Below are positions 39,886-51,457 of a stretch of 64,000 bases of DNA, in pieces. The notes beneath the pieces were generated by a model that was not told where the DNA came from, did no database searches, and was given only the letters and a program-made list of their open reading frames with translations. The DNA is taken from positions 3,256,501-3,320,500 of the forward strand of contig NZ_CP160680.1 in NCBI RefSeq assembly GCF_040784935.1, in the 5' to 3' direction. The translations under genes were made by a program, and so were the position numbers. Numbering within the stretch: position 1 is the first letter of the stretch; every line of letters starts with the position of its first letter. This stretch comes from Lewinella sp. LCG006 (GTDB lineage Bacteria > Bacteroidota > Bacteroidia > Chitinophagales > Saprospiraceae).

Positions 39886-42800
39886 ATGAGAAGACTGTTA
39901 CTTTTTTTGTTTGCTTGTATGGTTGTAAATGCGACCTACGCACAACTGGAAATTGAGGAATGTGTTGACCAATCAGAGATAACACTGGCCAGTTTTTGTG
40001 ATGACGCCTGTGTTATTTGTGACATCAATGGTTATACCGGTACCAACTCCTTACCTGGACTGGGAGAAGCCCCTCCAGGGTTCTGTGCCGGCCAATTACA
40101 CAACACCCAGTGGGTGGGGTTTGTGGCCAACTCGACGAGTATTACGATGGCGATTTCCGTATTTGATTGTATGCTGGATCAAGATGGAAATGGGGTAAAT
40201 GAAGGACTACAAATCGGAATTTACAACACCACCGATTGTTCCAATTTTAGTTTAGTCAGTAATTGTGATGATCAGGTGTTTGATAATACCACCCAAAATT
40301 TCACAGCCAATAACCTCACCATCGGAGGTATCTATTTTATCGTTTTAGATGGTGCTTTTGGTGATGTTTGTAGTTTTACCATCAACGTCACCAATGGTAG
40401 TACCACCGCACCAGATGTCGATCAGGATGTTCCTAATATCAATGCTGATCTGACCGTGTGCCAAGGAGGTAGTTTGGACGTTGATGTGGATGATGTCTTT
40501 GGTGCAGGAGCCTACATCTGGACGCTAGATGGTGAGCAGGTAGCTACCGATCAGCAATCATCGATCCAGTTTCCTTCTGATTTGGGGACTTATACCTTGT
40601 GTGTTTTTCCCTACAATCCCTGTAGTGAAGGCGTAGAAGGCTGTGTGGATGTCGAAGTGGTTCCTCCCACACCAGAGCAAATCAGTCGTGTCATTTGTGA
40701 AGGAGAAGAGTACAGCCTTGCGGGGGAAGATTTTACTGATCCTGGCGTTTACGATGTTTTTATCGAAGTAAATGGTGATTGTGATCGTATCATTGAACTT
40801 ACACTGGATGTTATTCCGATTGCTGAAACCTATTTGGAAGAAACGATTTGTGTTTACGATTTCTTCATGGTAGGAAATGAAGAGTTTTCGGAGGAAGGTT
40901 CCTATGAGATCTTACTTCAATCTCCAGCTACGGGCTGTGATTCTATAGTCTATCTGGATTTAGCGGTTATTGGTACACCAGAAACCACGCTTCTGGTGGA
41001 GTCTATCTGTGAAGGAGAGTCTTATGCTATTGGTGGCGATCAACTCACACAAGGAGGGAGCTATTTCTATGAACTTATTGATGAAGTAGGTTGTGACTCT
41101 TTGGTGGATCTTTTCCTCGAAGTATTTCCTCGCCCTAGCAGTCTTACTACCGCTACTATTTGTACGGGAGAGAGCTATCTTTTCAATGGTACCAACTATA
41201 CGGCTGCGGGCAACTATCAAGCCATATTTTCTTTGCCTACGGGTTGTGATAGTGTGGCGAATCTACAACTGTCGGTAGTAACGAGTGTTTCAGAAACCCT
41301 CAACGAAACCATCTGTAACGGAGAGTCCTTTACCGTTGGTAATAGTAGTTTCAACACTAGCGGTAGTTATTCGATACCCTTGACGGCGAACAATGGGTGT
41401 GACTCTATCGTCAATCTTAACCTTACCGTAATAGGCGTTGTCGTCGAGACGGCCAGTGCCTCCATCTGTGCAGGAGAAACTTATACTGTTGATGGCAACG
41501 ATTTTACGGCCAGCGGAACTTACGACCTGCCCTACACGGCTTCCAATGGCTGTGATTCTATCTTCCGACTAACACTGACCGTCTTACCCGTGTTTACCCA
41601 AACGCTCAACCCCAGCATTTGTGCCGGGCAGGTATTTAGCTTTGGCGGAAATGATTTTTCTACCACGGACACCTACGTCGTCACCTTGCCGGGATCAAAT
41701 GGTTGTGATTCTATCACCACCATCAACCTGACGGTGAGTGACCAGATTACGAGTACCGAAAACATTGTGCTCTGTAATGGAGAATCGATCACCGTGGACG
41801 GTACGAACCTCAATACAACGGGTACTTATGACTTCAATTTTACTTCCGCAGGAGGATGTGATAGTTTAGCAACCATCAACCTTACTGTTGGAGACCCCAT
41901 TGTTACGAATTTAGACGAAACCATCTGTCAGGGGCAATCCTATGCCGTGGGAACGGAAAGCTTCGATATGACGGGCATGTACACCGTTGTCCTTACTGCA
42001 TCAGATGGTTGTGACTCTACGGTAAACCTCAACTTGACGGTGACCGATCCCCCTGTAAGTCTCACGCAAGTGACGATTTGTGAAGGGGAAACTTATAATT
42101 TCAACGCCCAAGTGCTCACCACCTCCGGTACTTATACCAGTGCATTGGTGACTCCGCTAGGGTGTGACAGTATTGCGAATCTGGAATTGACCGTCACGGC
42201 AATTATTGAAACCGTTATAGATCCTACCATCTGTACTGGCACCAGTTTCGATATTGGTGGTGATGAACTTACCGTTGCTGGTACCTATGAGTATGTGTTC
42301 CCATCGGCCGCAGGTTGTGACTCCGTAGTGACGGTCAACCTACAAGTAGAAGATGCCATCTATACCCTCCTTGATGAGACCATTTGTGAAGGGGAGTCTT
42401 ATACGGTTGGTGGTAGCAATTACACGATGACTGGCGATTATGAAAATGCCTTTGTTACTCCCGAGGGTTGTGACAGTATTGTTCAGCTGAGTCTTACGGT
42501 TATCCCAACAGTCTTTAGCAATATCAGTGCCCGCATCTGTGCCGGAGAGGTCTTCAATGCTGGCGGAACAGATTATAGTCAGACCGGTATTTACACCAAT
42601 ACTATCCCAGCAGCCTCGGGATGTGATTCGGTCATTACACTGAATTTGACGGTAGTGAATATTCCAGTTACGCCAGTCAATGCTTCTATTTGTGACAGTG
42701 GTTCCTACACCGTTGGTGATAGTACCTTCACAGTAGCCGGGCAATATATGGTAGATCTAGTGTCGGTAGATGGTTGTGACAGTACTATTGTACTGGATCT

Positions 42801-45480
42801 GGTGGTGACGGATTTTTATGAAACCAACCTCAATATCAATCGCTGTGAAGGCGGTTCCTATACCGTCGGTAACAATACCTATACGATGACGGGTATGTAC
42901 CAAAATACCTTTACCTCGCAGGATGGTTGTGATTCGGTAGTTAATCTAAACCTTACGGTGAATCCTATTTTGCGGGATACCTTTTTCGTTGAGCTTTGCC
43001 AGGGTGAAAATTATACCATTGGTGGTGTCCCCTATAATACGACCGGAGAGCATGTAGAGACCATTGCCTCACAAGTGACCGGCTGTGATTCGGTGATCAC
43101 CCTCTTCCTGACGGTACACCCCAACCAGAATGTGACGATTGCAGAAACGATTTGTGATGGCGATATGGTCATGGTAGGCGATAGTACTTACACGACAACA
43201 GGTAGCTTTATTACGCCGCTCACTACGGTAGAGGGCTGTGATTCGATTGTTACACTCAACCTGAATGTGATTCCTATTCCGGAAACACCGCTAGTAGAAG
43301 TTATCTGTGATGGAGAGTCGATCACAGTGGGTATGAATACCTACACGACTACTGGCCAATATACCGATATACTCACCTCGGTCGTAAGTGGCTGTGACTC
43401 GATTGTGTATCTTGATCTCACAGTAAACCCCTTACCAGAGACCCAATTGACGGAAGTTATTTGTGAAGGCGAAGTCTTTAATATCGGTGGTGTAGATTAC
43501 AGTACCACCGGTGTCCACCAGGAGATTGTTGCTTCGGTGGTTACGGGCTGTGATTCGACGATTATTTTGGACCTTACGGTAAACCCCGTTTACGACCAGA
43601 TGATCAGCGATACGATCTGTGAAGGGGAGTTTGTCATGGTAGGGGATAGTACCTACACCACTACAGGCACCTGGCCGACCTTGATGAGCACGATAAACGG
43701 TTGTGATTCTTTGGTGACGCTGGAGCTGACGGTATTACCGATACTTACGACTGATTTGACGGAGACACTGTGTGCAGGTGAGACTTATATGGTCGGAAAC
43801 AACACTTACACCAATACGGGCGTCTTTACGGATGTACTTACCTCTTCTTTCGGTTGTGACTCTATCGTTACGCTGGATTTGACGGTCTTGGCACCCATCG
43901 AAACCTTCCTGGTCGAGGAAATTTGTGATGATGGTGATTATACCGTTGGCACGGAGGTCTTTACGGCTACTGGTGATTATACTGTTGTGCTGACTTCACC
44001 GAGTACGGGCTGTGACAGTACCGTTTATCTAGCCCTTACGGTAAATCCTACTTTTGTGACGACCCTCAATGAAAATATTTGTTCCGACGACGTCTTTACC
44101 GTTGGTGGGGTAGATTATAACCAGACAGGTACCTACCAGGCCGACCTTAGTACGGTGGCTGGTTGTGACAGTACGGTGATTCTGAATTTGACGGTAGCGC
44201 CTTGTGCGCTTACTTACGAAACCAGCTTTACGGATAATGATTGTAATGGAGGTTCAACGGGATCGCTTACGTTCAGTATGGTCATTGGAACACCTCCTTA
44301 TAGCTACACCTGGAGTGCCGTTGCCGGCCCGCTGACGGGCATGGGAGTTGTAGATGGCAACGGTGTTGCTATTGAGATTCCGGGATTACCGGCAGGAGCT
44401 TACCAAATTGAGGTCACTGATGCCAATGATGTTTTTGCAATCATCAACGCCAGCGTAGGAGAGCCTGCAGCACTCGCACTGCAATTGGAAGCGAGCAGCT
44501 ACGGTATATACGAGCTTAGTTGTCCGGGTGCTGCCGATGGTAGCCTGGCGGCAACCGTAAGTGGAGGTACGCCCCCTTACAGCTACACCTGGAGCAATGG
44601 CGCTACGACGCCCACTGCAGAGAACCTGGCCGAGGGGGCCTACAACTTGTTGGTGACAGATGCCAATGGTTGTACCATTACCGCTGGGGAAGCACTGGAA
44701 GCACCAGCACCACTAACGGCTAGTCTGGTGGTCGAATCCCCTCCCTGTTTCGATGACTTGGGCGGAATTGTGAGTGTACCGCAGGTAGAAGGGGGCAACG
44801 GCCCTTACCTGTATTCCATTGATGGTGCAGCCTACACTACGGCCTCTTTCTTTGGCAATGTAGCAATCGGAGATCATGTGATAAGTGTTCAAGACATCAA
44901 TGGCTGTACTTATGAAACCATTGCTACGGTAGAGCAGGCTCCGGAACTAACGGTGACTATTCTGGTAGACAACGACGGTGAATTAACCTACGGTGATAGC
45001 ACGGAGCTGTTTGCACAGACTTCTTATCCCGTGGCAGATTATAAGTGGTCTGGTGGTCCGATAGACTGTTCAGATTGTGACCGACCTTTCATTCGGCCAC
45101 TAGAATCGGTGGCTTACGAAGTAACGGTCACGGATGAGAACGGTTGTACTGCTACGGATCGTGTCATTATCTATGTCCGCAAAGACCGTGGTGTGTACAT
45201 TCCCAATGCCTTCTCCCCTGATGAAGATGGCACCAATGATGTATTCATGATCTACACCGATAACGATGTGGTAGAGATCAAATCTTTCTACGTGTTCAAC
45301 CGCTGGGGCGAATCGATGTACGAAGGCTTTGGCTTTTTGCCCAACGACCCCGCGCAAGGCTGGGATGGCCGCCACCGCGGAGAGATGGTCAACGCTGGCG
45401 TATACATTTACATGGCAGAGATTCTTTTCTCAGATGGGGAAACGCTGATCTACAAAGGAGATGTGGTGCTGATGCGGTAA
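39886..45480 (+). CDS. Giant T9SS-secreted repeat protein (adhesin-like)
   Basis: The 1864-residue protein has a signal peptide (MRRLLLFLFACMVVNATYA) and a Cys-rich N-terminal domain to about residue 265. Then come 23 tandem repeats of about 51 residues (about 265-1445), each with a xxICxGExYxVGG strand and ending in GCDSxVxLxLTV; two Cys per repeat suggest a disulfide in each. Three SprB-like repeats follow (about 1445-1690, e.g. TPPYSYTWSNG and AGAYQIEVTDAND), then a PKD-like segment. The final 95 residues are a type B gliding/T9SS sorting domain (IPNAFSPDEDGTNDVF, FNRWGESMYEG, AGVYIYMAEI). Like SprB, it is probably a surface adhesin moved or displayed by T9SS. It appears monocistronic, with a terminator just downstream. 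Confidence 0.88.
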   Translation: MRRLLLFLFACMVVNATYAQLEIEECVDQSEITLASFCDDACVICDINGYTGTNSLPGLGEAPPGFCAGQLHNTQWVGFVANSTSITMAISVFDCMLDQDGNGVNEGLQIGIYNTTDCSNFSLVSNCDDQVFDNTTQNFTANNLTIGGIYFIVLDGAFGDVCSFTINVTNGSTTAPDVDQDVPNINADLTVCQGGSLDVDVDDVFGAGAYIWTLDGEQVATDQQSSIQFPSDLGTYTLCVFPYNPCSEGVEGCVDVEVVPPTPEQISRVICEGEEYSLAGEDFTDPGVYDVFIEVNGDCDRIIELTLDVIPIAETYLEETICVYDFFMVGNEEFSEEGSYEILLQSPATGCDSIVYLDLAVIGTPETTLLVESICEGESYAIGGDQLTQGGSYFYELIDEVGCDSLVDLFLEVFPRPSSLTTATICTGESYLFNGTNYTAAGNYQAIFSLPTGCDSVANLQLSVVTSVSETLNETICNGESFTVGNSSFNTSGSYSIPLTANNGCDSIVNLNLTVIGVVVETASASICAGETYTVDGNDFTASGTYDLPYTASNGCDSIFRLTLTVLPVFTQTLNPSICAGQVFSFGGNDFSTTDTYVVTLPGSNGCDSITTINLTVSDQITSTENIVLCNGESITVDGTNLNTTGTYDFNFTSAGGCDSLATINLTVGDPIVTNLDETICQGQSYAVGTESFDMTGMYTVVLTASDGCDSTVNLNLTVTDPPVSLTQVTICEGETYNFNAQVLTTSGTYTSALVTPLGCDSIANLELTVTAIIETVIDPTICTGTSFDIGGDELTVAGTYEYVFPSAAGCDSVVTVNLQVEDAIYTLLDETICEGESYTVGGSNYTMTGDYENAFVTPEGCDSIVQLSLTVIPTVFSNISARICAGEVFNAGGTDYSQTGIYTNTIPAASGCDSVITLNLTVVNIPVTPVNASICDSGSYTVGDSTFTVAGQYMVDLVSVDGCDSTIVLDLVVTDFYETNLNINRCEGGSYTVGNNTYTMTGMYQNTFTSQDGCDSVVNLNLTVNPILRDTFFVELCQGENYTIGGVPYNTTGEHVETIASQVTGCDSVITLFLTVHPNQNVTIAETICDGDMVMVGDSTYTTTGSFITPLTTVEGCDSIVTLNLNVIPIPETPLVEVICDGESITVGMNTYTTTGQYTDILTSVVSGCDSIVYLDLTVNPLPETQLTEVICEGEVFNIGGVDYSTTGVHQEIVASVVTGCDSTIILDLTVNPVYDQMISDTICEGEFVMVGDSTYTTTGTWPTLMSTINGCDSLVTLELTVLPILTTDLTETLCAGETYMVGNNTYTNTGVFTDVLTSSFGCDSIVTLDLTVLAPIETFLVEEICDDGDYTVGTEVFTATGDYTVVLTSPSTGCDSTVYLALTVNPTFVTTLNENICSDDVFTVGGVDYNQTGTYQADLSTVAGCDSTVILNLTVAPCALTYETSFTDNDCNGGSTGSLTFSMVIGTPPYSYTWSAVAGPLTGMGVVDGNGVAIEIPGLPAGAYQIEVTDANDVFAIINASVGEPAALALQLEASSYGIYELSCPGAADGSLAATVSGGTPPYSYTWSNGATTPTAENLAEGAYNLLVTDANGCTITAGEALEAPAPLTASLVVESPPCFDDLGGIVSVPQVEGGNGPYLYSIDGAAYTTASFFGNVAIGDHVISVQDINGCTYETIATVEQAPELTVTILVDNDGELTYGDSTELFAQTSYPVADYKWSGGPIDCSDCDRPFIRPLESVAYEVTVTDENGCTATDRVIIYVRKDRGVYIPNAFSPDEDGTNDVFMIYTDNDVVEIKSFYVFNRWGESMYEGFGFLPNDPAQGWDGRHRGEMVNAGVYIYMAEILFSDGETLIYKGDVVLMR

Positions 45481-47317: not shown

Positions 47318-48136
47318 TTACCAACGTTTGCCGAGTTGTAGATTCAGGTAAAGATTCAGGAAAATTGGACTGTTCTCAAGATGAGGCACGGTAGGGCTTT
47401 CTACCATGATGGGTACGTCCTTAAAATAGACATCCAGTTGTATACCTGCTTCAAAAGCTTTCACGAGCTCATCGAATGCCCCCCAGTCGAAGTGTGCAGC
47501 TGCCTTGGCGTGGATGCCAGGCATAATCGTTAATTCATTCAATCCTTTAGAAAAGGAGGCTGCGCCCACAATGCGGCTAAGGTCTAGAAAAATATTGTCG
47601 TTGTCGGGGCTGTAGCGTTCTTCGTTGACGTAGAATTGGTTTGATCCCGAGCCAGGGTCGCGGGAACGGAGTACTTCCAGGTAGTAGGGTTTGATCAAGG
47701 CAAGATTAGCTCCCAACTGGTAGCTCATTCCAACAGCGAGACCACGGGTTTTGGCTTTTTCTGAAAAATAACGTTTTTCGCCCATGCCTGCTCTTAGTAC
47801 GAAAGCACTATTCTGTTTGGCGTAAATGAAGGAACGAGAAACGCGGTTGGAGGGACCGAATTGGAAATCAAAACTCTGGCGATCCTCCTGCGGATGGCGA
47901 ATATCACCGAATTCGAAATTATAGAAACGGGTACGGTCGTAACTTTTGAGCTGACCTATATTTACCCCGAAACCAAAAGAACGGGGCGTAATCAGACGGA
48001 AGTCGAAGCTCAACTCCTTGTTGTAGACAATTCCGGCGTTGCCATCATTGTAGTAGTTTTGCCCGGCAGGTAAAGATTGCTGAGCAATGACATAGCACGC
48101 ACTGAGGCTGAAGAGTAAGGAGAAGAAATATTTCAT
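47318..48136 (-). CDS. Putative outer-membrane beta-barrel protein
   Basis: The 272-residue protein starts at ATG 48136 with signal KYFFSLLFSLSACYVIAQ; the TTG three codons earlier is less likely. The mature part alternates strands and short turns: YNKELSFDFRLITPRSFGFG, SRSFIYAKQNSAFVLRAGMG, LAVGMSYQLGANLALIKPYY and EAGIQLDVYF. The last segment, SPIFLNLYLNLQLGKRW, ends in an aromatic residue typical of barrels. Family unknown. It lies 148 bases downstream of the small-GTPase gene on the same strand and could be part of that unit. Confidence 0.55.
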   Translation of the reverse strand: MKYFFSLLFSLSACYVIAQQSLPAGQNYYNDGNAGIVYNKELSFDFRLITPRSFGFGVNIGQLKSYDRTRFYNFEFGDIRHPQEDRQSFDFQFGPSNRVSRSFIYAKQNSAFVLRAGMGEKRYFSEKAKTRGLAVGMSYQLGANLALIKPYYLEVLRSRDPGSGSNQFYVNEERYSPDNDNIFLDLSRIVGAASFSKGLNELTIMPGIHAKAAAHFDWGAFDELVKAFEAGIQLDVYFKDVPIMVESPTVPHLENSPIFLNLYLNLQLGKRW

Positions 48137-48283
48137 ATTGACCAACAGCTGTTTCTAAATCCAACAAATTCCAAAGTAATTTACATTAAAATAATGAGTC
48201 TTACTAACGAATTGTTCTTGCTGTTGTGCAGAACTTGCAATAAATGACGGAAATTGGACGCTTTGGGGGCCCTTGTTTTACCA

Positions 48284-48775
48284 CTACTTGCTAAAAGGGC
48301 TCAGTAAAGCACGAGCAATGCCTTCGAAAAGATCTTCGACATTTTCCCCCGTTCTGGCGCTGGTGAAAATATGGGGCTGGGTTTGGGAATAGATTTCCTT
48401 GAGAGTCTGGTCGGAAACAAGGTCTTTCTTGTTACCAACCTTCCGGATCAAAACATTGGGCAAAACCGAGTTGATGTAAACGAGGTCATCTTCCAAGCGA
48501 CTAAAAGTAGCGGGTCGGCTCAGATCAAAAACATAAATGATAGCACTAGACCCTAAAAAGTAAGAGCGAGGCACTTTTTCCTGGGACACTTCTCCGGCCA
48601 AATCCCAGATAACTAAAGAGACTTCCTCACCATCAATGGTAACACTTTTTTTATCTACCCGAACACCAATGGTTGTGAGGTACTTTTCGTTAAAAGTATT
48701 GGTGATAAAGCGGTTAAAGAGAGAGGTTTTGCCTACCCCAAAATGCCCGGTAATGACAATTTTTTTAGTGATCAT
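48284..48775 (-). CDS. Rab/Ras-like small GTPase
   Basis: The 163-residue protein is a complete Ras-superfamily G domain. G1 is GHFGVGKTS (residues 10-18), G2 contains Thr35 in YLTTIGV, G3 is WDLAGE with Asp58-Gly61, G4 is NKKD (115-118) and G5 is SAR (139-141). WDLAGE, FLGSSAIIYVFDLSRPATF and GENVEDLF make it look like eukaryotic Rab proteins. The residue equivalent to Ras Gln61 is Glu62, which may reduce intrinsic hydrolysis. There is no C-terminal Cys, so it is not prenylated. It overlaps the upstream 271-residue gene by four bases (ATGA), so both are probably made together. Bacterial members such as MglA control polarity; this one is not an obvious MglA. Confidence 0.9.
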   Translation of the reverse strand: MITKKIVITGHFGVGKTSLFNRFITNTFNEKYLTTIGVRVDKKSVTIDGEEVSLVIWDLAGEVSQEKVPRSYFLGSSAIIYVFDLSRPATFSRLEDDLVYINSVLPNVLIRKVGNKKDLVSDQTLKEIYSQTQPHIFTSARTGENVEDLFEGIARALLSPFSK

Positions 48776-49587
48776 TGCGGTAGTGCTTTGTAGGGTTTAA
48801 TAAAATATGCATCTAATTCTTTTTGTATTCGGGCGTAAAAAGCAGGTTCGGGTTGTTGCAGATCGTGGTTCAATTCACGGGCCGCAAATACTAGTATTTT
48901 TTCTGCCAACTCATCGCGTTCTTGTTCGCTGATTGTGCCTGCGATGGCCAGCGCAATGTAGTAATTAAAAAAATTATGAATCATTATTTCGTAACTACCA
49001 TATTGAATCCCCCGAAGTTCTTCGTCGGTCCGATTGAAGGCATCTTCCACAAAAGCTTTGATCGCTGTTAGCATACCTGCGATCATATCTTTGTCCGCCG
49101 TCTCGGTAGAAGAAGCGCTACCGAGTAAGAGCCCCGACTCATGGCTGATGATGTAGACTTCTTCAACGATGGAGGGCTGCAGGGCAACGATGAGCTCATC
49201 CGTGGTTTTGCGCTTCCAAAAACGTAAATAGGAAAAGGACTCCTTGCGCATCTGATCAATGCGCTCACGCAATAAGCGTAACTCGTTGTTGATGTACTTT
49301 TTGATCAATAAACCCAGGCGCGGATACAAGATGTTGATGAGTTCATCCTGCTTTTGCCGCATGCGCTGGTCGATTATCTTTTGTACCACCTCCACGTAAG
49401 CATCTGGAAAATTTTCTTCCAGTTCTTTCATGTGCTCCGCAATGATGGGGTTGATCCGCTTAGACAATTCTTCCTGGCTCTCCACAATGTGCTTTACTTC
49501 CGCTACCGACTCACGGTCTTTGCGGAGGAGCGCATCCCGAAGGCGATCCAAAAGAATACTGTCCTGAGTTGATCCTGCTGTACCCAT
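48772..49587 (-). CDS. Roadblock/longin-like protein, partner of small GTPase
   Basis: The 271-residue soluble protein has a helical, coiled-coil-prone N-terminal half (residues 1-125, e.g. EELSKRINPIIAEHMKELEE). An alpha/beta domain follows: IVEEVYIISHESGLLLGSAS, TADKDMIAGMLTAIKAFVED and YGSYEIMIHNFFNYYIALAI. This strand-helix-strand order resembles roadblock/longin folds, which in MglB and eukaryotic GEF/GAP platforms bind small GTPases. The gene is directly between the coiled-coil gene (15-base gap) and the GTPase (4-base overlap). A role as regulator, scaffold or GAP of the GTPase is inferred from both fold and overlap. No enzymatic motif is seen. Confidence 0.65.
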   Translation of the reverse strand: MGTAGSTQDSILLDRLRDALLRKDRESVAEVKHIVESQEELSKRINPIIAEHMKELEENFPDAYVEVVQKIIDQRMRQKQDELINILYPRLGLLIKKYINNELRLLRERIDQMRKESFSYLRFWKRKTTDELIVALQPSIVEEVYIISHESGLLLGSASSTETADKDMIAGMLTAIKAFVEDAFNRTDEELRGIQYGSYEIMIHNFFNYYIALAIAGTISEQERDELAEKILVFAARELNHDLQQPEPAFYARIQKELDAYFIKPYKALPQ

Positions 49588-49602
49588 TATGCGATATGCT
49601 GA

Positions 49603-49899
49603 TTAGCGTTTGAGTTCCTGTCCAAGAGAGAGGAACAGCGCGCTCAACGACTGACGGTCTTCCTCCATTTTGTCTTTGAAATGAGTGGCCAGGTCGGTAC
49701 TTTTTTGCTGTAGCAATGCATCAAGCGCTTTGATTCGTTCGTCGAGTGCGGCTTCCTTGGCACTCAGTGCTTCACGTTGTGCCTGCAGATCCGCTTCCAC
49801 TTTTTCAAAGCGTTCGTTGTATTCGTGTATGATCTCACCCATCAGAATATCCCTTATGGTCATCAATTCAGAAAGGGAGGTGGGAGGTTTAGTTGCCAT
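49603..49899 (-). CDS. Small coiled-coil protein of the GTPase cassette
   Basis: The 98-residue protein is almost wholly alpha-helical with strong heptad character from about residue 25 to 85 (FEKVEADLQAQREALSAKEA, ALDERIKALDALLQQKSTDL). The first 24 residues (MATKPPTSLSELMTIRDILM) are a short non-coiled head. No membrane segment or signal is present. It is the first gene of the cassette and probably forms oligomers. A perfect 12-bp palindrome (ATTTTGCAAAAT, 49908-49919) lies just upstream. Confidence 0.7.
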   Translation of the reverse strand: MATKPPTSLSELMTIRDILMGEIIHEYNERFEKVEADLQAQREALSAKEAALDERIKALDALLQQKSTDLATHFKDKMEEDRQSLSALFLSLGQELKR

Positions 49900-50152: not shown

Positions 50153-51457
50153 ATGGAGGCAATATGCTATTGTGAGAAGCCTACTCCTAGGCTGGGTTAT
50201 ATTGTGGATTATCTTTTTACCGAACTACTGGGGGTAAAAGTAAGGGTAACCTCTGAGGTATCTGAATATAAAAATTTTAATGGCATCCGCTGTTGCTATT
50301 CTACAAAGGAGATCGTTGCTGGAGAAGTGCGGATGAAGCCTCATGGGCTTCTCTACGAGCAGGGGGTGAAGGAGCAGCTTGTGGCCTCTTTTTTGGCAGG
50401 TGATTTGCCCGCTTTTTTTGCTGCGGGGCCGGGGTATGATCTGCCTTTCGATGTTTTTTCGGCTGCTTTTTATATCCTTAGCCGGTACGAAGAATACCTT
50501 CCTTTTGAACCAGACCAGCACGGTCGCTATCTCGCCCAAATATCCTGGGCGCATCGCAATGGTTGCCTTCAATACCCTATCCTTTGGGAATGGGCGAAAT
50601 TGTTGGGAGCGGCCATCCAGCGCAAATATCCACGCTGGCAACCCCGTCCTTCGGGGTATACCTTTGCGCCAACCTACGATATCGACCTGCCGTGGGCCTA
50701 TCGCCATCGCGGCCTCCGAGGTTGGGGCAGATTGGGATTGGATGTGATTAACAGGGATTGGCCTCAGGTGCAAGCACGCTGGCGGGTACAATTTCAAGGT
50801 CAGGAGGATCCTTTTTTTATCTTTTCACCTTTGCGGAAATTACACGCAGCAACAGGCGTTAGACCCTGTATTTTCTGGCTACTTGCCGATAGCACGCGCG
50901 AAGATACCAACCCCTCCTGGAAATTAGCACCATACCAAAAGCTCATCCAGGAGGTGAGTGAGTGGAGCGAACTTGGTATCCATCCCTCTTATCACAGTTG
51001 GGTGTCGGCTGACATCATTGAGCAAAATAAAAATCGACTGGAAGAGATTGTTGGTTCAGCTATAACACACAGCAGACAGCATTTTCTGCGCCTCCGCCTG
51101 CCTGATACTTACCGGGCCTTACTGGCGGCGGGTATTCGGCATGATTATTCTATGGGGTTTGCTGCTGCACCCGGCTACCGGGCTGGCACGGCGGTACCTT
51201 TTCGCTGGTACGATCTGGAGCGTGAAGAAGTAACGGAGTTGTGGATACATCCCTTTGCCGTGATGGATGTAACGCTGAAACAATATCAAGGCCTTACTGC
51301 CCAGGAAGCGACTACCGAATTGGACCGTTTGCAATCCTATTGCCAAAAGGAAGAACAGCCTTTTTGTACCCTATGGCACAACAGCAGTTTTTCGGCGCTC
51401 CACGGCTGGGAGGGCTGGTGGGAAGTTTATGAAGGTCTTTTTAGAAAAGGGGAGTGA
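50153..51457 (+). CDS. Polysaccharide deacetylase-like protein (DUF7033-type N-terminus)
   Basis: The 434-residue cytosolic-looking protein has an N-terminal region (about 1-165) rich in aromatic residues, and then a deacetylase-like barrel. YTFAPTYDIDLPWAYRHRGL contains the DxD metal/catalytic Asp pair, and WSELGIHPSYHSWVSA holds the His-x-x-x-His metal site of NodB-type enzymes. Later FCTLWHNSSFSALHGWEGW includes another His-rich turn. This two-part arrangement occurs in Bacteroidota proteins linked to surface polysaccharide. It stands alone between the GTPase cassette (divergent) and upp. Substrate unknown. Confidence 0.78.
   Translation: MEAICYCEKPTPRLGYIVDYLFTELLGVKVRVTSEVSEYKNFNGIRCCYSTKEIVAGEVRMKPHGLLYEQGVKEQLVASFLAGDLPAFFAAGPGYDLPFDVFSAAFYILSRYEEYLPFEPDQHGRYLAQISWAHRNGCLQYPILWEWAKLLGAAIQRKYPRWQPRPSGYTFAPTYDIDLPWAYRHRGLRGWGRLGLDVINRDWPQVQARWRVQFQGQEDPFFIFSPLRKLHAATGVRPCIFWLLADSTREDTNPSWKLAPYQKLIQEVSEWSELGIHPSYHSWVSADIIEQNKNRLEEIVGSAITHSRQHFLRLRLPDTYRALLAAGIRHDYSMGFAAAPGYRAGTAVPFRWYDLEREEVTELWIHPFAVMDVTLKQYQGLTAQEATTELDRLQSYCQKEEQPFCTLWHNSSFSALHGWEGWWEVYEGLFRKGE

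Follow-up and report, generated by a model that had tools for sequence, protein, structure and literature searches.

The window analysed here is a stretch of 64,000 nucleotides from the 7.5-Mb, single-contig genome of Lewinella sp. LCG006 (contig NZ_CP160680.1), and our subject is a cassette of three minus-strand genes in it (Table 1), which encode, in this order, a coiled-coil protein of 98 amino acids (aa), a protein of 271 aa and a small GTPase of 163 aa. The tight packing claimed in a preliminary description of this DNA is indeed there, with open reading frames (ORFs) at the coordinates of Table 1, a 15-base gap between the first two genes and a 4-base ATGA overlap between the 271-aa and the GTPase gene; predicted promoters and terminators numbered three each (3.7 and 2.7 in shuffled sequence). 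Overall, the cassette is best explained - and, to our minds, likely so - as a Group 1 Rup system in reduced form, in which the 271-aa protein is a longin platform for the GTPase.

All loci compared here were selected by a match to the 271-aa family and therefore test the partners of this protein and their order rather than its own presence. A contig scan with the 271-aa protein found 12 relatives (L005-L016, which we take to belong to the window's class), the nearest named one being Lewinella cohaerens, in which the 271-aa protein is 89% identical. The family profile (A1) matched 31/198 genomes of the order, 14/395 of a phylum sample and three of the four genomes of the genus. Together with 30 order loci besides the window's own, this gives 42 relatives, all of which keep the order coiled coil, 271-aa protein, GTPase on one strand, as do both later class loci (L103, L104). 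The scattered neighbourhood named beforehand as grounds for giving up the idea is thus not seen within the class, whereas outside it the arrangement loosens, the GTPase being a same-strand neighbour in 5/11 loci. For the one pair compared (window and L005, dS high at 0.7-1.7; for pairs with L006 the divergence was too great for a calculation), ratios of nonsynonymous to synonymous substitution rates (dN/dS, by NG86 / YN00) were 0.03 / 0.04 for the GTPase, 0.04 / 0.08 for the 271-aa gene and 0.09 / 0.14 for the coiled coil, because of which the trio does not look like a relic; none of the three genes has an internal stop. As single observations, a 277-aa ORF (about 4769-5788 of L054) between longin protein and GTPase is the sole trio break among the 42 loci, in a Cytophagales genome the gene just upstream of the trio (L009:5290-5574) encodes a 94-aa PG_binding_1 protein, reminiscent of the OmpA link in other classes (see below), and one genome (G438; C8, C13) has two matches to the longin-protein profile, each in a 622-aa frame.

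Pfam assigns the GTPase to Ras at 2.6e-30, and its closest solved structures in a PDB sequence search are Rab-2A, Rab-4B and Rab-14; the small G domain is complete and can be read through from the P-loop over T35, W57-D58-LAG-E62 and N115KKD to an SA at 139-140. Its chain is free of cysteine and hence lacks the prenylated C-terminal cysteines of eukaryotic Rabs. So the earlier claims of a Rab/Ras-type domain with Thr35 and NKKD, of Glu62 in place of the catalytic Gln and of a missing lipid-anchor Cys all hold. Among 44 aligned GTPases (window, 42 relatives and one from Nostoc), G10, G15, K16 and T17 as well as N115, K116 and D118 are invariant, and Gln follows DxxG in none (Glu in 29, His in five, Lys, Asp and Ser in one each); in the remaining seven (L064, L068, L069, L070, L072, L073, L074) Asp replaces the Gly of DxxG itself, in switch II. 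Two other Ras-type matches in the window's genome (expectation value, E, of 0.001 or less) are by eye HflX (L003) and IF-2 (L004), so that no second small GTPase was seen.

For the 98-aa protein, the ORF described earlier as a coiled coil is confirmed; its Pfam matches are weak, none being over cut-off, and include several coiled-coil families. Its G21 is kept in 43/44 sequences, and its relatives adjoin the 271-aa family in 42/42 loci, in Nostoc and, where other Bacteroidota classes are concerned, in 10/11 loci.

In sequence searches, matches of the 271-aa protein itself stayed below cut-off in both Pfam (best E 0.02) and NCBIfam, and nothing significant came from the PDB. Its predicted structure, however, has a C-terminal domain of the order b-b-a-b-b-b-a-a, which agrees with the longin fold, including two helices after the last strand, and which matches longins across 115-133 residues in most of the best 50 structural matches listed; the top ones are adaptor subunits (sigma/mu, zeta-COP) at identities of about 8-12%. 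In relatives, Fuz_longin_1 weakly matches 11 of 44 family domains (best 0.013 in a Pfam scan of members; 3/13, best 0.044, in a smaller scan of 13 members), and the domain alignment finds AP-4 sigma (0.12) and BET5 (0.6) weakly in the PDB, where an earlier 13-row alignment gave nothing of note (Cullin-4B at 2.7). These weak matches lean to the longins of MON1/CCZ1/FUZ/INTU at a level too low to decide. The model thus suggests that the domain probably has longin shape and that longin topology fits it better than roadblock topology. A longin/roadblock-class fold, as foreseen in the preliminary description, therefore finds support from a model of modest confidence, and its absence, which was to have refuted the idea, is not borne out; the family search proposed alongside gave no significant longin or roadblock match, only the weak Fuz_longin_1 ones in relatives.

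Several points weigh against this assignment. The structure model is weak (mean predicted local distance difference test, pLDDT, 59.8; predicted template modelling score, pTM, 0.41; 13 sequences in the alignment), and roadblocks are also among the Foldseek matches, with p14/MP1 at rank 20 and MglB at rank 50. No longin family is matched significantly by sequence, the window's own domain matches no longin model (its sole match is DUF2292, 0.15), the top PDB sequence match is an uncharacterised protein (3k6q, 0.08) and unrelated families outscore the longins in one or two members each, namely Pox_D5 (0.00019, in one member of the 13-member scan too), DOMON (0.0018) and Dynein_AAA_lid (0.0052). 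Moreover, scanning 31 genomes with Fuz_longin_1 gave 27 matches with just three at longin-protein loci (G019, G041, G054), and three of 14 control genomes were matched as well.

In the helical region ahead of this domain, P89 is present in 44/44 sequences and G92 in 98%. The Nostoc homologue has Pro-punctuated 23-residue repeats here (self-similarity against shuffles, z 8.0 at offset 23 and 5.9 at 46), and across 43 family proteins offsets 19 and 23 lead weakly in the mean (1.95 and 1.78). In the Nostoc sp. UHCC 0926 protein (L078:5233-7524) we count five prolines spaced by 23, N-terminal to the longin-like domain.

As described in 2015 by Wuichet and Sogaard-Andersen (PMC4316618), Group 1 Rup GTPases occur in Bacteroidetes, Chloroflexi, Cyanobacteria and gamma-Proteobacteria, lack the G3 glutamine and have three conserved neighbours. 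The first is a cytoplasmic coiled-coil protein; the second contains a conserved unknown domain, behind which a membrane helix and OmpA are often found; the third is an output module, as a rule a histidine kinase (HK) or a c-di-GMP enzyme, with an invariant Gln in its N-terminal region. The gene for the latter is called highly conserved there, and supply of the glutamine in trans is those authors' idea. A set of this kind is encoded on Nostoc NZ_CP117772.1, the one record found by plasmid tblastn of the 271-aa protein (3e-10) and a megabase plasmid with one annotated feature only in PLSDB: a coiled coil of 218 aa, a 763-aa protein in which a membrane-like helix, BON and OmpA follow the longin-like domain, a GTPase of 174 aa and an 822-aa HK+REC+Hpt protein. 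Against the window, the N-terminal part of the 763-aa protein and the GTPase score 149 bits each.

By comparison, in the window and its 42 relatives, all 43 of them Bacteroidota proteins, nothing follows the domain, the chain stopping 126-147 residues past residue 136, and the 11 loci from other Bacteroidota classes have ORFs of 589-636 aa with a hydrophobic stretch. OmpA is matched by Pfam in all ten of these other-class proteins scanned (L096 was not among them), nine over cut-off and L100 just under it (27.0 versus 27.2 bits); L100 is also the one locus of the 11 without an adjoining coiled coil. The class Bacteroidia thus seems, from the domain make-up of these proteins, to carry a cytosolic derivative of an OmpA-bearing form, a polarity we favour because of the Nostoc form. 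It has to be held against a tightly kept cassette that the other-class GTPase adjoins on the same strand in just five loci (L092, L093, L094, L097, L101), lies on the opposite strand in three (L098, L100, L102) and outside the retrieved stretch in three (L095, L096, L099).

A fourth gene was not found next to the cassette in the window. In 24 of the 42 relatives the GTPase is directly followed by one whose protein opens with a domain that we call EFFN (alignments A4, A5); among the other 18, contigs end in three (L057, L068, L069), a diverged look-alike is seen by eye in four (L071, L075, L076, L077) and no adjacent EFFN match was found in 11 (L005, L006, L016, L050, L051, L058, L064, L070, L072, L073, L074), L073 having by eye a different kinase-like ORF in its place. 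Genome-wide, A5 matches 23/198 genomes, 22 of them among the 31 with a longin protein (Fisher p 5e-21), and 9/18 versus 1/167 remain without the 13 counted genomes from which the profile was partly built (p 8e-10), both p-values being nominal as the genomes are related. Of the EFFN matches, eight are found apart from any longin locus, all of them histidine kinases by eye (L084 was scanned and confirmed); in seven cases the genome carries its longin protein on a different contig, and the eighth is in a genome without a longin match (G092, 86% complete). For the window's genome EFFN gave no match at E up to 10 with A5 and one partial match (E 0.68) with A4, and since seven genomes have an unlinked EFFN kinase, a diverged and unlinked effector may have escaped the profile.

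Kinase content varies among the linked EFFN proteins (the scans left out L011-L014 and L056). L008 and L010 have HK+REC, and L011-L014 align with these two proteins; the kinase of L009 is split, and L055 has HisKA and HATPase over cut-off; HATPase alone is over cut-off in L059, L060 and L061, kinase matches are below cut-off in L062 and L066, no Pfam kinase was found in L007, L015, L048, L054, L065 and L067, and the ORF is just 128-137 aa long in L049, L052, L053 and L063. In a tree of longin and GTPase columns, rooted on Nostoc and with several deeper nodes unsupported, the three members without a fourth gene (window, L005, L006) form the sister group of L052 (support 0.87), and the clades including L049 and L053, or L048, L007 and L015, have supports of 0.90 and 1.0. 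This pattern suggests a graded loss of the output kinase, from which the trio rather than the kinase would be the conserved core. The N-domain of the fourth protein falls into no Pfam family in more than one of 20 members, its pattern looks PAS-like, and Q120, N123 and E124 (each at 90% or more in A5) form a Q-x-x-N-E helix, readable in the Nostoc protein too, that is our candidate for the invariant Gln of 2015. Two genomes (G065, G085) combine a diverged look-alike beside the trio (L075, L076) with a clear EFFN kinase encoded on a different contig, and may thus have two readers side by side. A separate contig also carries the EFFN kinase in five of the seven genomes with a Gly-to-Asp GTPase, which suggests a co-change of switch and reader.

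How might the cassette work? We propose that the longin protein, oligomerised through its helical stalk and the coiled-coil protein, would serve as a platform on which the GTPase is bound and its nucleotide state controlled, much as longin or roadblock dimers act for Rabs, Rags and MglA, with hydrolysis presumably slow by itself for want of Gln61. The reader of the GTP form in relatives would be the fourth protein: its PAS-like N-domain, together with the Q-x-x-N-E helix, may gate the histidine kinase, and the same helix may supply the missing glutamine in trans. The platform of the OmpA-bearing form, which we take to be the ancestral one, would cross the inner membrane and might act as a cell-wall sensor; that of Bacteroidia would be cytosolic, and as no kinase gene was found in the window's genome, the switch there probably uses an unlinked or replaced partner. 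It counts against this scheme that every functional step of the cassette is inferred. A role in gliding or type IX secretion (T9SS), as suggested earlier along with polarity, gains no support from the marker SprA: since it is found in 192/198 order genomes and the 271-aa family in 31/198, the cassette is not part of the core machinery, beyond which co-occurrence is uninformative.

That the longin protein binds the GTPase directly and regulates it as platform or exchange factor is a step we favour by a small measure; it might instead be a scaffold or effector, comparable to sigma/mu adaptins around Arf1, with regulation coming from elsewhere. Adaptor subunits join Arf1-GTP complexes and do not exchange nucleotide, they are the best structural matches of our model, and the alignment shows no recognisable catalytic motif; the weak sequence matches, on the other hand, point to the longins of exchange factors, too faintly to settle it. 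We regard a scaffold as a serious contender, if the less probable of the two.

Far less credence is due to two further explanations. Were the domain an MglB-type roadblock and the pair a diverged MglA/MglB, this could draw on the kinship of roadblock and longin folds, as given in PMC3521125, and on MglB and p14/MP1 in the Foldseek list, but these rank below the longins, the model has two post-strand helices and its long longin matches, and Robl_LC7 was found neither in the three proteins (E up to 10) nor in the window's genome (E up to 1) nor among the 25 families listed for 44 domains. Hence we consider it improbable, and the earlier claim that the cassette is distinct from MglA/MglB is upheld at that threshold. 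Similarly, the Lewinella-type cassette might be a decaying remnant that lost its output gene first, with the switch to follow: the fourth gene is missing beside it in window, L005 and L006 and undetected across the window's genome, sister lineages have lost the kinase, and the family is patchy in order and genus (31/198 and 3/4). Yet G motifs are kept, stops are absent and dN/dS is low (0.03-0.14, one pair at high dS), which makes decay hard to credit and leaves the reduced Group 1 Rup member with a longin platform as our preferred explanation.

Table 1. Features of the cassette in window coordinates.
Feature	Position	Strand	Basis
Coiled-coil protein, 98 aa	49603..49899	-	ORF; relatives adjoin 271-aa family
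Coiled-coil protein, conserved N-terminal stretch, residues 12-31	49807..49866	-	Column counts
271-aa longin-like protein (soluble form of the Group 1 Rup protein that has the 'conserved unknown domain')	48772..49587	-	
271-aa protein, helical region, residues 5-118	49234..49575	-	Low-confidence model; column counts
Putative longin-like domain, residues 140-268, b-b-a-b-b-b-a-a	48784..49170	-	Model; structure comparison; weak sequence matches
Rup-type small GTPase, 163 aa	48284..48775	-	Pfam Ras, PDB Rab matches
GTPase G1 / P-loop, residues 10-17	48725..48748	-	Sequence
GTPase G3 DLAGE, Glu62 at the Ras Gln61 position	48590..48604	-	Sequence
GTPase G4 NKKD, residues 115-118	48422..48433	-	Sequence

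Around the cassette, a divergent gene of 434 aa lies upstream (50153-51457, plus strand), and a comparison limited to length and place finds ORFs of 434-447 aa at the matching site in L005, L006, L015, L048 and L052, of which the L005 and L006 ones look related by eye. Between the GTPase and lipoyl synthase genes is a secreted-looking ORF of 275 aa (47318-48145, minus strand) for which no Pfam match at E up to 0.01 was found; L005 and L006 have an ORF resembling it by eye at the matching site. Farther off (39886-45480, plus strand), a secreted-looking 1864-aa protein carries numerous 'GCDS' repeats, and its C-terminal end looks by eye like the gliding type.

The system as such is published (2015) but uncharacterised, and the cassette is a real, conserved and reduced variant of it; the preliminary description had overlooked this system and its fourth gene. 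No report of a longin beside a Rup GTPase was found in the open-licence PMC papers searched, and within these papers the longin assignment, the split into soluble and OmpA forms, the graded kinase loss and the loss of the usual Group 1 Rup output gene in the window lineage appear to be new. Tentatively, and short of calling it probable, we suggest that two bacterial phyla carry a Rab-like GTPase linked to a true longin partner, first tethered by OmpA and in Lewinella free, cytosolic and kinase-less. If true, the eukaryotic longin-Rab partnership would have an old bacterial counterpart, and longins would not have arisen solely from MglB-type roadblocks in the archaeal-eukaryotic line; a longin partner would give such GTPases a concrete binding pair and bears on the origin of this pairing.

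As for known systems, the tri-longin Rab exchange factors Mon1-Ccz1, Fuz-Inturned and BLOC-3 are eukaryotic heterodimers with three longins per subunit, and the cassette protein has no significant sequence match to them. The longins of adaptor sigma/mu and zeta-COP differ in being parts of coat complexes. With regard to Asgard archaeal longins, longin protein and GTPase stand together in 44/44 class loci, these being longin-selected. PMC4917890 gives 'Longin/Roadblock' jointly as present in bacteria. MglA/MglB of Myxococcus and relatives (PMC10933270) is similar in that a small GTPase has a partner of related fold encoded nearby; in contrast, the partner here is longin-like with a helical stalk and without a Robl_LC7 match, and there is an extra coiled-coil gene. 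Closest is Group 1 Rup, with which the cassette shares a Ras-superfamily GTPase without G3 Gln, a coiled-coil neighbour, the lack of any MglB-type gene found and a neighbour whose conserved domain is common to the Nostoc OmpA-type protein. It differs in its soluble partner without transmembrane helix or OmpA and in the fourth output gene not found here, which - being called highly conserved in PMC4316618 - makes it a reduced member at best, and the domain left unnamed in that paper is here modelled as a longin.
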